From the NCBI GenBank assembly GCA_948439995.1, contig CAOJNP010000009.1:1-35941 (forward strand): a DNA stretch of 35,941 nucleotides, read 5' to 3'. Below, piece after piece: positions 21,844 through 25,590 of this stretch. The stretch's first letter is position 1, and each line of letters opens with the position of its first letter. The translations under genes were made by a program, and so were the position numbers. This stretch comes from an uncultured Erysipelotrichaceae bacterium. Lineage in GTDB: Bacteria; Bacillota_I; Bacilli_A; RF39; UBA660. The notes under the pieces are model-generated. The model did no database searches, was not told the origin of the DNA, and saw only the letters and a list, made by a program, of their open reading frames with translations.

Positions 21844-22260
21844 TTATATCATTATTTTATCTAACCAAAAATAATCTTTGTTTTTAAAATCGCAGAAAAA
21901 TAAATTATGTTCTTCTTCTAAGTCTTTCATAAAAGTAGGTCTTAAAACTGTACTTTCCATTTCTAAAAATGTTTTACAAACTTTTAAAACTGTTTTTTCA
22001 TGTCGATAAGCATCATGAATTTGATGAACATTACTATATTTTGTGTAAAAATAATTATCTTTATATTTTTTAAAAAGAGTAATATCCAATTGTTTTGGAT
22101 TAAATAAATCAACAATTCGTTCAAATAAATCTAATCCTAAATGAATATCACTTCGATCAACATAATATATTTGTTCTAAAGTTCTATAAAGGTGATATGG
22201 ATTTTTTTTCGTTAACATAGCATACTCATCCTTTATTTTAAAAATATAAAATTGTCTCAT
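21844..22260 (-). CDS. sirA: SirA-like protein (sporulation inhibitor of replication)
   Basis: In B. subtilis SirA binds DnaA domain I and blocks new replication rounds at sporulation onset. This 138-aa protein starts MRQFYIFKIKDEYA, comparable with YTYLIKEEFA of SirA, and ends FFCDFKNKDYFWLDKI, comparable with FLAMDFNSKRYGWL. It sits between yneF and the transketolase-family gene exactly as in B. subtilis. The ATG at 22260 follows GGGTGAAGGG; the frame opens with a GTG three codons earlier. Similarity is recognisable but modest, so the call rests on both sequence and synteny. Confidence 0.72.
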   Translation of the reverse strand: MRQFYIFKIKDEYAMLTKKNPYHLYRTLEQIYYVDRSDIHLGLDLFERIVDLFNPKQLDITLFKKYKDNYFYTKYSNVHQIHDAYRHEKTVLKVCKTFLEMESTVLRPTFMKDLEEEHNLFFCDFKNKDYFWLDKIMI

Positions 22261-22294
22261 ACCCTTCACCCAATTTTAGAGTATCACTATTTTC

Positions 22295-22334
22295 TTAAAA
22301 AAAATGTCGAAATTTATTTTAATAAATTTTCGAC
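22295..22334 (-). terminator. Intrinsic terminator of the transketolase-family gene
   Basis: A long stem (GTCGAAAATTTAT with ATAAATTTCGAC, one bulge; 22306-22334) is followed on the minus strand by a run of T (22297-22304). It covers the last six codons and the stop codon (22314-22316). Confidence 0.85.
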
Positions 22335-24293
22335 TTTAATTTTTAAAGATTCATAATCAAATCCCATTTTCTTTAATACTTCATTTGAATGGCCACTGTA
22401 ACCATAATCATTTAACCCAATAACCATTTCATTATTACTAGCAAAACGATTCCAAATAAGAGGATTGCTTGCTTCGATTACAATTCGTTTTATATTTTTT
22501 GGTAGAATAAGTTCTTCATACTCTTTTCCTTCACTTAAAAACAATTCCATGGAGGGCATTGACACAACTCGTAAATCCAAACCATTTTTTTCTAAGTCGT
22601 AAGCAATCTGTAATGTATATGGTAATTCACTTCCCGAACTGATTAAAATTCCATCCAATCGATTTTTTTCTTGTTTGATAATATAAGCTCCCTTTGAAAC
22701 CATTTTTGCATTGCTATTTGGTAGTTTTGGAGCATTATTTTGAGTAATGATTAATGCTGATGGAAGGTTTCTTTTTAGTATAGTTTCCCAAGAACCCATT
22801 ACTTCTAAAATGTCAGCTGGTCGATAAACTACTAAATTTGGAATGGTATGCAACATAGATAATTGTTCAATCGGTTCGGCAGCGGGTCCTTGCTCTCCTA
22901 CACTAATTGTGTCATGCGTAAAAATATAAGTAACTGGTATATTCATCAAAGAAGACATACGGATAGATGGTTTAATATAATCTGCATAAATCAATTTTGT
23001 ACTTCCAAACACTTTTAATCCAGTTACTGCCATCCCATTGATAATTGATCCCATTGCATGACTTCTTAATCCAAAATAAATATTTCGTATCCATTTATTT
23101 TTTTCTGATAATTCATTTTGTTTAATAAAAGTTTGACAAGTTGAAAAATGGTCTGTACTACCTCCTAAAAATAGATTACTTTGCGGAGCGATCATATTCA
23201 TTATTTTTTGATTTGTCTCAGTTAAAGGTTCACAATATCCATCATTAATTTTATAATGATCCGAATCAAATGAGAGATGAAGTTGTTTTTGGGATATAGA
23301 ATCTATGATTTCTTTCAATTTTAAGCTGGTACTACTATTGGAACGGTTATAAATTTCAATCCACTTTTTATATTTTTTTTCTGTTCTTTCTTGTATGTTT
23401 TTTTGCATGAATATCATACTGTCTTTAGAGATTTCAAAAGGTGGCAAGAATAAATTCCATTTTTTTCTTAAATTAGCTACATCAGTAGTTGCCAAAGGAT
23501 TATTATATGTTATATTTGTATTTTCATTAAAAGATTCTTTTCCAAGAGCTACTTTCATAATCAAAATGGATGGCTTTCCACTTTTTTTTGCATTCAGGAT
23601 TGCTTTATCAATTTCTTTTATATTGGTTCCATCTTTTAAATAATCAACATAAAAACCCATTGCTTGATATTTTTTTACCATATCTTCTTGTTTTACTATA
23701 TCAAGTGGTCCATCTTGGATCATATTGTTGTGGATATATAAAAAAATTAAATTGCTAATTTTTTTAGATGCAGCAAAAGATAATGATTCTTCTGCATTTC
23801 CTTTTATCATGTCACGGTCTGTACAAATACAATATGTGTCATAATCCAATAATTTGATACGATCATCTTCATTATCAATTATCGTTTGGCATATATTTCT
23901 TGCAAGCGCCATTCCTACTGCATTACCAATTCCTTCCCCAAATAATCCCGTTGAAATTTCAATACCTGGAGTTAAACCATATTCTGGATATCCAGGAGTA
24001 ATGGATCCAAGTGAGCAATAATTCATTAAATCTTCTTTGCGAATTGAATAACCACACAAATATAGCATTGCATAAAGTAGACTAGAAGCATTTCCAGAAG
24101 ATAAAACAACACGATCTCGATTGATCCAATTTGGCTCATTCGGTCGAACTATTAAATGTCTAGAAAATAAAGTGTATATGGTAGGTGCCATACTAAGAAC
24201 TAATCCTGGAGATCCACTTTTGGCTCTTGATATCATATCAATACTTAACATTTTTAATTCGTTTAAAGTTCTAATATCATCTTGATTCATCAT
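22314..24293 (-). CDS. Transketolase-family protein with degenerate active site (probable pseudoenzyme)
   Basis: Full-length transketolase architecture (659 aa; E. coli TktA is 663) in the place where B. subtilis has tkt. Most catalytic and cofactor residues are replaced. By alignment with TktA from memory: H26 to S28 (SGSPG), H66 to N68 (SSGNAS), H100 to Y102 (TPGYPE), GDG154-156 to T158-D159-R160, E160 to K164, H261 to Y263, the thiamine-activating E411 to S411 (GLRSHAM), D469 to Q468, H473 to A472 (GPAAEP) and R520 to Q518. Mg ligands D159 and N189, and THDT, remain. The frame is intact with normal codon use, a terminator and an extended -10 promoter, so it is expressed and selected. It is unlikely to be an ordinary transketolase; a structural or regulatory role is inference. 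Start could be either of two adjacent ATG codons. Confidence 0.88.
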   Translation of the reverse strand: MMNQDDIRTLNELKMLSIDMISRAKSGSPGLVLSMAPTIYTLFSRHLIVRPNEPNWINRDRVVLSSGNASSLLYAMLYLCGYSIRKEDLMNYCSLGSITPGYPEYGLTPGIEISTGLFGEGIGNAVGMALARNICQTIIDNEDDRIKLLDYDTYCICTDRDMIKGNAEESLSFAASKKISNLIFLYIHNNMIQDGPLDIVKQEDMVKKYQAMGFYVDYLKDGTNIKEIDKAILNAKKSGKPSILIMKVALGKESFNENTNITYNNPLATTDVANLRKKWNLFLPPFEISKDSMIFMQKNIQERTEKKYKKWIEIYNRSNSSTSLKLKEIIDSISQKQLHLSFDSDHYKINDGYCEPLTETNQKIMNMIAPQSNLFLGGSTDHFSTCQTFIKQNELSEKNKWIRNIYFGLRSHAMGSIINGMAVTGLKVFGSTKLIYADYIKPSIRMSSLMNIPVTYIFTHDTISVGEQGPAAEPIEQLSMLHTIPNLVVYRPADILEVMGSWETILKRNLPSALIITQNNAPKLPNSNAKMVSKGAYIIKQEKNRLDGILISSGSELPYTLQIAYDLEKNGLDLRVVSMPSMELFLSEGKEYEELILPKNIKRIVIEASNPLIWNRFASNNEMVIGLNDYGYSGHSNEVLKKMGFDYESLKIKVENLLK

Positions 24294-24317
24294 AACACCC
24301 TCTTATTATTTTGGTTT

Positions 24318-24328
24318 ATTATACCAAA
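24318..24328 (-). promoter_or_regulatory. Extended -10 promoter of the transketolase-family gene
   Basis: TGGTATAAT (-10 at 24318-24323) with an upstream TG; no good -35. It gives the gene a start independent of the SOS operon upstream. Confidence 0.5.
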
Positions 24329-24380
24329 AAATAGTGATTCGGGAAAAACTTTTGAATCTTTTTTTAATAATTAGACATTA

Positions 24381-24671
24381 TTAATTTAAAACTTTTTCGA
24401 ACGAAGAGTTGGATTTTAAGATATGAATTTCTAATTTTTCACATAAAGAGAGGAGTACGGAAAAAATACTAGAAATATCGAATTCTTGAGAGTATTTGTC
24501 TTCTTCATATAAATCATTTGCTAAATCTACTACTTTTTCAAACAGGCAAAAAATTTCTTCATTTAATAAATTATTATGGTATTTTTCTTTTACAATTTCT
24601 TTGACATAATTTTGAATCATTACCAAACTACTTTTTGCTTTTATTTTTTCAATTAATTCTTTTTTACACAT
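24381..24671 (-). CDS. Hypothetical helical protein, 96 aa, in LexA-controlled operon
   Basis: Not recognised. Almost wholly helical, Lys/Glu/Leu rich, with three cysteines and no membrane span. It starts 2 nt after the small membrane protein gene and uses the AAAGGAGG site contained in that gene's last codons, so the two are co-translated. By position it corresponds to yneB/ynzC in the B. subtilis SOS operon, but the sequence is neither a resolvase nor a YnzC protein. Confidence 0.7.
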   Translation of the reverse strand: MCKKELIEKIKAKSSLVMIQNYVKEIVKEKYHNNLLNEEIFCLFEKVVDLANDLYEEDKYSQEFDISSIFSVLLSLCEKLEIHILKSNSSFEKVLN

Positions 24672-24672
24672 A

Positions 24673-24837
24673 TTACATTCCTCCTTTTATGTTTTGAATT
24701 GCAATTTTATTTTCTTCTACATTTTGATTATTTATTTGATTTAAATATCGAAATCTCTCATTTAAAAGAATCACTCCAATAATGATCACTCCATAAAACA
24801 AGATAAGTCCTCCATAATTTTTCCATAATTGATTCAT
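24673..24837 (-). CDS. 54-aa single-pass membrane protein under LexA control (YneA-position)
   Basis: A short frame starting MNQLWKNYGGLILFYGV and ending QNIKGGM, with a transmembrane segment at about 9-25 followed by NERFR and a polar tail. The GAAGGAGTGATT ribosome site before the ATG is strong, and the promoter has a LexA box between -35 and -10. The location, divergent from lexA, is that of the SOS cell-division inhibitor yneA of Bacillus. It lacks the LysM domain of YneA. An SOS division-inhibitor role is inferred from context only. Confidence 0.75.
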   Translation of the reverse strand: MNQLWKNYGGLILFYGVIIIGVILLNERFRYLNQINNQNVEENKIAIQNIKGGM

Positions 24838-24862
24838 AATCACTCCTTCTTTCTACATTCAT

Positions 24863-24890
24863 TTTATAATCGAATATTAGTTCGTGTCAA
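24863..24890 (-). promoter_or_regulatory. LexA-regulated promoter of the small membrane protein operon
   Basis: TTGACA (24885-24890), 16-nt spacer, TATAAA (24863-24868). The spacer is the SOS box at 24871-24884. Confidence 0.75.
24871..24884. promoter_or_regulatory. LexA operator (SOS box 1)
   Basis: CGAATATTAGTTCG matches the Gram-positive consensus CGAAC-N4-GTTCG at 9 of 10 positions. It lies in the core promoter of the divergent operon. Confidence 0.85.
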
Positions 24891-24898
24891 GAGTATTT

Positions 24899-24912
24899 TG
24901 AACAAATGTTTG
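24899..24912. promoter_or_regulatory. LexA operator (SOS box 2)
   Basis: TGAACAAATGTTTG matches CGAAC-N4-GTTCG at 8 of 10 positions. It overlaps the -35 of the lexA promoter and its centre is 28 nt from that of box 1. Confidence 0.7.
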
Positions 24913-24938
24913 ACAACTTTACTTTCCTATGTTAATAT
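24910..24938 (+). promoter_or_regulatory. Promoter of lexA
   Basis: TTGACA (24910-24915), 17-nt spacer, TAATAT (24933-24938). The predicted start near 24945 would leave a very short leader that begins at the GGAGG ribosome site (24945-24949). Confidence 0.75.
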
Positions 24939-24957
24939 TTGAATGGAGGAATGGAAA

Positions 24958-25590
24958 ATGATATTAGAAAGTGAAAAATCATTAACAAAAAAACAGTCTG
25001 AGGTATTGGATTACATCAAAAAATATACTGCAGAACATGGTTATCCCCCTGCCATTCGAGAAATTGGAGCAGGTCTTGGTCTTTCTAGTCCTGCTACCGT
25101 TCATACACATGTTAAAAAATTAGAAGAAGCTGGTGTTATTAAAACATCAAGTAATAAATTTAGAACAATTGAAATATTAGTAGAAAATGAATATGAAGAA
25201 ACAAAAGATGATGTAATAAAAGTTCCCCTACTTGGTAAAATTACGGCAGGAAATCCCATTGAAGCAATTGAAAGACCAAATGATTTTTTTGATTTACCTG
25301 CTGTATTAATTCCAAAGAAAGAAACTGTTTTCACATTAGAAGTCAGTGGTGAATCAATGATTAATGCCGGAATTTATGATGGCGATTATGTCATTGTTCA
25401 AAAACAAAATACTGCTAGAAATGGTGATATTGTTGTTGCAATGACTGAGGAAAATGAAGTAACTTTGAAAACCTTTTATAAAGAAGATGGGCATATACGC
25501 TTACAACCAGAAAATGATACCATGGCGCCTTTTATTTTTGAACACATAACCATTTTAGGAAAAGCAATTGGTTTATATCGAAAATTTTAA
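24958..25590 (+). CDS. lexA: LexA repressor
   Basis: SOS repressor that self-cleaves when RecA filaments form. From the ATG at 24958 (GGAGG eight nt upstream; an in-frame ATG at 24943 overlaps that site) it is 210 aa. The N-terminal winged helix includes GYPPAIREIGAGLGLSSPATVHTHV. The cleavage site is A97-G98 in KITAGNP, and the Ser-Lys dyad is S133 (SGESM) and K171 (VTLKTF). Two SOS boxes upstream predict autoregulation together with the divergent operon. Confidence 0.97.
   Translation: MILESEKSLTKKQSEVLDYIKKYTAEHGYPPAIREIGAGLGLSSPATVHTHVKKLEEAGVIKTSSNKFRTIEILVENEYEETKDDVIKVPLLGKITAGNPIEAIERPNDFFDLPAVLIPKKETVFTLEVSGESMINAGIYDGDYVIVQKQNTARNGDIVVAMTEENEVTLKTFYKEDGHIRLQPENDTMAPFIFEHITILGKAIGLYRKF

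Follow-up and report, generated by a model that had tools for sequence, protein, structure and literature searches.

In the window, by which we mean the whole 35,941-nt stretch of DNA analysed here, a short open reading frame runs divergently from lexA in the place that yneA holds in Bacillus. The questions it raises are whether the frame encodes a protein at all, whether that protein belongs to the SOS response, and whether it could hold back cell division without a LysM domain. A sequence-only reading had described a small gene with a good ribosome site and one transmembrane helix, two LexA boxes (9/10 and 8/10) between it and lexA, a yneA-like position and no LysM. The frame, its ribosome site and both boxes were all found (Table 1), and neither Pfam nor NCBIfam returned a LysM or YneA match for the small protein. 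Its start codon is most likely ATG 24837, giving 54 aa, with GTG 24843 as an alternative that would give 56 aa.

Table 1. Positions of the features at the lexA locus and of the phage-like homologues of the small gene
Feature	Position	Strand	Evidence or context
Small SOS gene, 54 aa, one N-terminal transmembrane helix	24673..24837, stop included (ORF 24676-24837, stop codon 24673-24675)	-	ORF, conservation, AF2 model; divergent from lexA
Ribosome site AAGAAGGAG and 5-nt spacer of the small gene	24838..24851	-
Second gene of the operon, 96 aa	24381..24671	-	Ribosome site within the small gene's last codons
lexA, 210 aa, frame open from 24943	24958..25590	+	TIGR00498, 226.5 bits
Transketolase gene (tkt)	22314..24293	-	Downstream of the small gene, as in Bacillus
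SirA-like gene	21844..22269	-	Pfam PF10747, E 0.002, below cut-off
LexA box 1, CGAATATTAGTTCG, 9/10	24871..24884		Within the spacer of the small-gene promoter
LexA box 2, TGAACAAATGTTTG, 8/10	24899..24912		Overlaps the lexA -35
Small-gene promoter	24861..24890	-	TTGACA 24885-24890, spacer 16-18 nt, -10 TATAAA/TAAAAT
lexA promoter	24910..24938	+	TTGACA-17-TAATAT, TTGACA at 24910-24915
Phage-like copy L320, 50 aa	L320:1576-1725	-	Between a helix-turn-helix gene and replication genes (primosomal/O-like, DnaB-like helicase)
Phage-like copy L321, 55 aa	L321:1412-1576	-	Followed by genes whose PHROG matches have no assigned function
Phage-like copy L326, 51 aa	L326:1334-1486	-	Precedes a DnaD-like helicase loader gene
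IMG/VR copy L330, 55 aa	L330:282-446	+	Early-looking, upstream of a DNA methyltransferase
IMG/VR copy L331, 52 aa	L331:12-167	+	Identical to the L332 copy; upstream of SSB and DnaD-like genes
IMG/VR copy L332, 52 aa	L332:5980-6135	+	Identical to the L331 copy; upstream of SSB and DnaD-like genes

Conservation was assessed on the lexA loci of one GTDB family, taken from a subset of the listed lexA places; 80 of these loci were the best LexA matches and not a random draw. Removal of duplicates, defined by identical upstream 200 bases, of 13 loci from other families and of 7 with contig ends or unaligned N-termini left 165 loci. To count as a candidate, an ORF had to be 30-75 aa long, possess a ribosome site and an N-terminal helix, and lie divergently from lexA at a distance of 60-260 bp. 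Such a one-helix ORF, 34-60 aa long, stood beside lexA in 134 of the 165 distinct loci, with a median length of 47 aa and a median start 116 bp from lexA. Relaxed criteria recovered it in five of the 31 negatives (L008, L027, L032, L065, L118), raising the count to 139/165. About 26 loci seem to be without the gene, so it is dispensable in places, and these absences are soft because the MAGs are incomplete. An initial count, made on some of these loci, was positive in 71 of 92, while dinucleotide shuffles were positive in 16 of 1840 cases (0.9%); random stretches from the same loci held such an ORF in 32 of 1207.

The six other genomes of the same genus all carry the small gene, at 56-72% identity. 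Over 113 pairs above 55% identity the pooled dN/dS was 0.31 and pN/pS 0.43, and pN was below pS in 102 of the 103 pairs outside the genus. The protein evolves fast, with a mean column identity of 19% in alignment A1, yet it keeps a K-rich N-terminus, a helix in which FY is frequent and, in the window's clade, an LNxRFxYLN motif after the helix. A tkt gene lies near it in 71 of the 132 loci with more than 1 kb of sequence, and the downstream genes differ. Position, conservation and dN/dS make it very likely that the small ORF is a real gene. Conservation of the frame and its helix in relatives, which the sequence-only reading had proposed as a check, was thus found both within the genus and across the family, as was the position beside lexA.

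The AlphaFold2 model of the small protein is a single helix over residues 3-51 with a mean pLDDT of 79.6; confidence is high over the membrane part only and drops to near 59 in the last 15 residues. Across the family the N-terminal flank of the helix is more positive than the C-terminal flank in 110 of 134 proteins, equal in 15 and reversed in 9, and in the window protein itself the flanking charges are nearly balanced. Hydropathy and charge predict a single N-terminal helix oriented N-in/C-out, the topology of SosA. The outer tail is a polar linker followed by a hydrophobic C-terminal patch: three consecutive VILMFYAT residues occur in the last 8 aa of 89/134 proteins, compared with the preceding 8 aa in 9/134. 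In the window protein this patch is IAI, followed by extra codons carrying the ribosome site of the next gene, AAAGGAGGA. A PDB profile search with alignment A1 retrieved nothing but one-helix stretches of unrelated proteins (KCNE channels, E 0.009). Against the family libraries, weak and scattered matches came from 1-3 of 118 members, and the small protein matches none of these libraries.

Turning to regulation, the minus strand reads TTGACA, directly followed by box 1 and then by the -10, so LexA on box 1 would occupy the promoter spacer of the small gene. A consensus scan of 24300-25000 placed these two promoters, of the small gene and lexA, at the top (11/12 and 10/12) among six promoter-like sites, where shuffles gave 5.6. 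Counts of box-like sites were not above chance in the window (5 versus 7.5 expected) or in the genome (114 versus a control of 181, and 15 versus 30 in a second count), and the LexA-box case therefore rests on position and conservation. None of 2680 shuffles of the stretch upstream of lexA contained two boxes of at least 8/10. Among the 134 gene-bearing loci, a box of at least 8/10 lies near lexA in 124 and two boxes in 80, and a box overlaps the predicted small-gene promoter in 119; small-gene promoters of at least 10/12 were present in 120, against 89 of 1340 shuffles. The spacing of paired boxes is mostly 28-29 or 38-39 bp, two clusters about one helical turn apart, hinting at a face-of-helix constraint between two LexA dimers. 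Two boxes also occur in three of the 31 loci that lack a strict candidate, and each of these three yields the small gene under relaxed criteria; loci truly without the gene carry one box at most, and two-box promoters occur only alongside it.

Further evidence came from other places in these genomes. In the genus, each of the six loci that include the start of recA (L206-L211) carries the box CAAACGAATGTTTG ahead of that gene. The same box lies in the window's genome beside a TIGR03916 putative DNA modification/repair radical-SAM gene (L224; G000:C7:42497-42510), a possible further SOS gene; uvrB had no box of 8/10 in any of the seven genus genomes. A profile search of 117 family genomes disclosed copies of the small gene away from lexA, and the ten places inspected comprised five displaced chromosomal copies, three phage-like copies and two weak profile matches (L327, L328), which were dropped. 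Four of the displaced copies (L322, L323, L324, L329) have a box of 8-10/10 in the promoter, and the fifth (L325) has no such box. The L329 copy adjoins a gene that we take to resemble murC. Because two-box promoters track the gene, a similar box precedes recA and four of the five displaced copies retain theirs, the small gene is very likely under SOS control through these predicted LexA boxes, in agreement with the earlier proposal.

The operon has a second gene, of 96 aa, which was absent from the sequence-only reading and begins 1 nt downstream of the small gene. Its ribosome site is coded inside the end of the small gene, so the two are tightly coupled. It was found in 8 of the 134 loci, namely all seven genus genomes and L126. 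Weak PDB profile matches of its product (1vmg, E 0.016; 2gta, 0.11; 4qgp, 0.65) suggest a helix bundle, presumably of the MazG kind. A Pfam search gave nothing in favour of a MazG-like reading, one 96-aa member matched a nucleoside triphosphate pyrophosphohydrolase in NCBIfam (E 0.053), and a fold search with the model (pLDDT 67) gave 0 matches at E up to 0.001. The SirA-like gene, two genes on from the small gene, completes a Bacillus-like order of lexA, small gene, tkt and sirA.

Homologues were also present in early modules of phage or prophage-like regions. When 2.9 million viral contigs were scanned for the motif, only those of L330, L331 and L332 matched. IMG/VR scans with the window, L321 and L326 proteins as queries gave no relative, and the INPHARED phages held no match to the small protein. 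Two candidates were rejected as homologues, L333 as a false match inside a capsid-like frame and L338 as a non-membrane frame. None of 5000 membrane-architecture decoys reached the score of the L320, L321, L330 or L332 copy, and 3 of 5000 scored as high as L326. No box of 8/10 was present upstream of L320, L321, L326, L330 or L332; the L331 copy starts too near its contig end to show whether it has one. In one genome (G055) whose lexA locus (L078) lacks the small gene, a phage-like copy is the sole strong profile match. We tentatively suggest, at somewhat less than even confidence, that LysM-free SOS checkpoint micropeptides of about 45-55 aa span a family of uncultured gut bacteria and that phages infecting this family took them over, stopping host septation during phage growth, independently of SOS, from an early replication module without a LexA box. 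If so, the phage copies would show phages putting a host checkpoint peptide to their own use.

Considered together, the small gene probably encodes a LexA-repressed one-helix micropeptide that delays septation after DNA damage, a functional counterpart of YneA and SosA. Division inhibition is likely by analogy, given the position and architecture of YneA and SosA, the presence of FtsW- and CtpA-type genes and the hydrophobic C-terminal patch. FtsW/RodA-type genes occur in all seven genus genomes, with three in the window's genome, and CtpA/Prc genes in 106 of 117 family genomes, the window's own included; the other 11 gave no CtpA match, and some of them hold the peptide (G007, G044, G079). 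We count against division inhibition the shortness of the protein relative to SosA, which itself loses activity on truncation, the nearly balanced charges of the window protein, the lack of a uvrB box, the CtpA-less genomes and the roughly 26 loci without the gene.

The proposed mechanism has five steps. LexA, with strong sequence evidence for this predicted binding, would cover the promoter spacer at box 1 and keep the small gene silent. RecA filaments would then trigger LexA cleavage, allowing transcription of the small gene and the 96-aa gene. The peptide is predicted to span the membrane once, through a helix of about 20 residues, leaving the N-terminus inside and a tail of 15-25 residues outside. 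By analogy with YneA and SosA, the helix and the membrane-proximal residues (LNxRFxYLN) would bind the septal synthase, with FtsW or its FtsL/DivIC partners as the most likely target, and septal wall synthesis would stall. When the gene is again repressed, CtpA or another tail protease could clear the peptide via the hydrophobic C-terminal patch. If this scheme is true, the DNA-damage division checkpoint of the lineage is run by one of the smallest inhibitors known, which does without the cell-wall-binding LysM that YneA needs, raising the question of the minimum that a one-helix peptide needs to stop a septal wall synthase. The LNxRFxYLN and C-terminal patches are named candidate residues for function.

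Other functions could be served by a protein of this size. An SOS-induced membrane toxin of the TisB kind, making pores or lowering the proton motive force to cause dormancy with the divisome untouched, would likewise be very small, SOS-controlled and built on one hydrophobic helix; we consider it unlikely, as the polar motif after the helix and the C-terminal patch are both conserved and the gene has a fixed place beside lexA across a family. No Rfam antitoxin RNA matched up to E 1 in 24300-25100, a search in which an undescribed RNA would be missed. Slightly less probable still is that the peptide regulates some other membrane protein, for example a protease, transporter or sensor kinase, within the SOS response and outside division. 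Many one-helix micropeptides do regulate a larger membrane partner, which speaks for this idea; against it, the copies in phage early modules fit a host take-over, and in several genera the genes for known division inhibitors occupy the spot next to lexA (PMC6851548). A chance frame or leader peptide of the downstream gene, to which the short frame and its lack of annotation in any family library might point, was rejected as highly improbable in view of the counts against shuffles, the dN/dS of 0.31 and the retention of the gene with differing downstream genes and at sites away from lexA.

The micropeptide can be compared with several known systems. SidA and DidA of Caulobacter, a distant lineage, inhibit division and are induced by DNA damage; their very small size and one helix are shared with the present protein, and they are likened here by description only. 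In another family of the class, three loci that we take to be Turicibacter-like (L248, L252, L256) have a 57-aa one-helix ORF between lexA and a presumably YnzC-like gene, alike in position only. These ORFs were rejected as homologues, since the profile misses L252 and 1181 of 5000 decoys score as high. Our literature search, in which subscription papers and preprints were mostly outside coverage, found no publication on this micropeptide family.

Division inhibitors adjoin lexA in Bacillus, Listeria, Staphylococcus, Mycobacterium and Corynebacterium (PMC6851548). YneA of B. subtilis shares with the small protein the place beside lexA, the SOS control and the single helix. According to PMC13396833, YneA binds FtsW TM7 through its helix and requires its LysM for inhibition, whereas the small protein has no LysM. 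The same paper reports that the YneA helix alone localises without inhibiting, so a LysM-less peptide must act otherwise. YneA is a substrate of CtpA in vitro, and the protease is proposed to recognise the C-terminus (PMC6051672). The YneA model NF010723 of NCBIfam gave no match over cut-off in 149 genomes of a phylum sample, and its five sub-cut-off matches in the window's genome (G000) lie on contigs C27 and C11, away from the small gene. With neither a LysM nor an NF010723 match, YneA membership was rejected.

Lacking LysM, the peptide would work like staphylococcal SosA rather than YneA. Like the gene for SosA, the small gene lies divergent from lexA with a predicted LexA box in its promoter. 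As PMC6851548 describes, SosA of Staphylococcus aureus, a LysM-less SOS division inhibitor of 77 aa, also shares LexA control, a single N-terminal helix, an outer C-tail and the lack of clear similarity to YneA. The same text reports that SosA needs a membrane-proximal outer segment, with activity lost when 30 of the 77 residues are cut, and that SosA without its last 10 residues accumulates and inhibits more, as it does upon CtpA loss. The C-terminal end of SosA is implicated in CtpA turnover, and we liken the C-terminal patch to it. The small protein fits this SosA scheme, in that its helix would dock, its short membrane-proximal patch inhibit and its C-terminal patch serve turnover; SosA, at 77 aa with an essential membrane-proximal segment, is compared by description and not by residues with proteins of 34-60 aa. 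Phage use of such a peptide has a precedent in Gp11 of staphylococcal phage PhiNM1, which, according to PMC11237401, is a small early membrane protein blocking division via DivIC/FtsW and MurG. Gp11 shares small size, membrane location and an early phage gene with the phage copies and is likened by description only; the phage copies differ from it in resembling a lexA-linked host protein. A LysM-less SOS division inhibitor is thus already known in SosA, and what is new here is a shorter, family-wide form, together with predicted homologues without LexA boxes in phage and prophage early modules.
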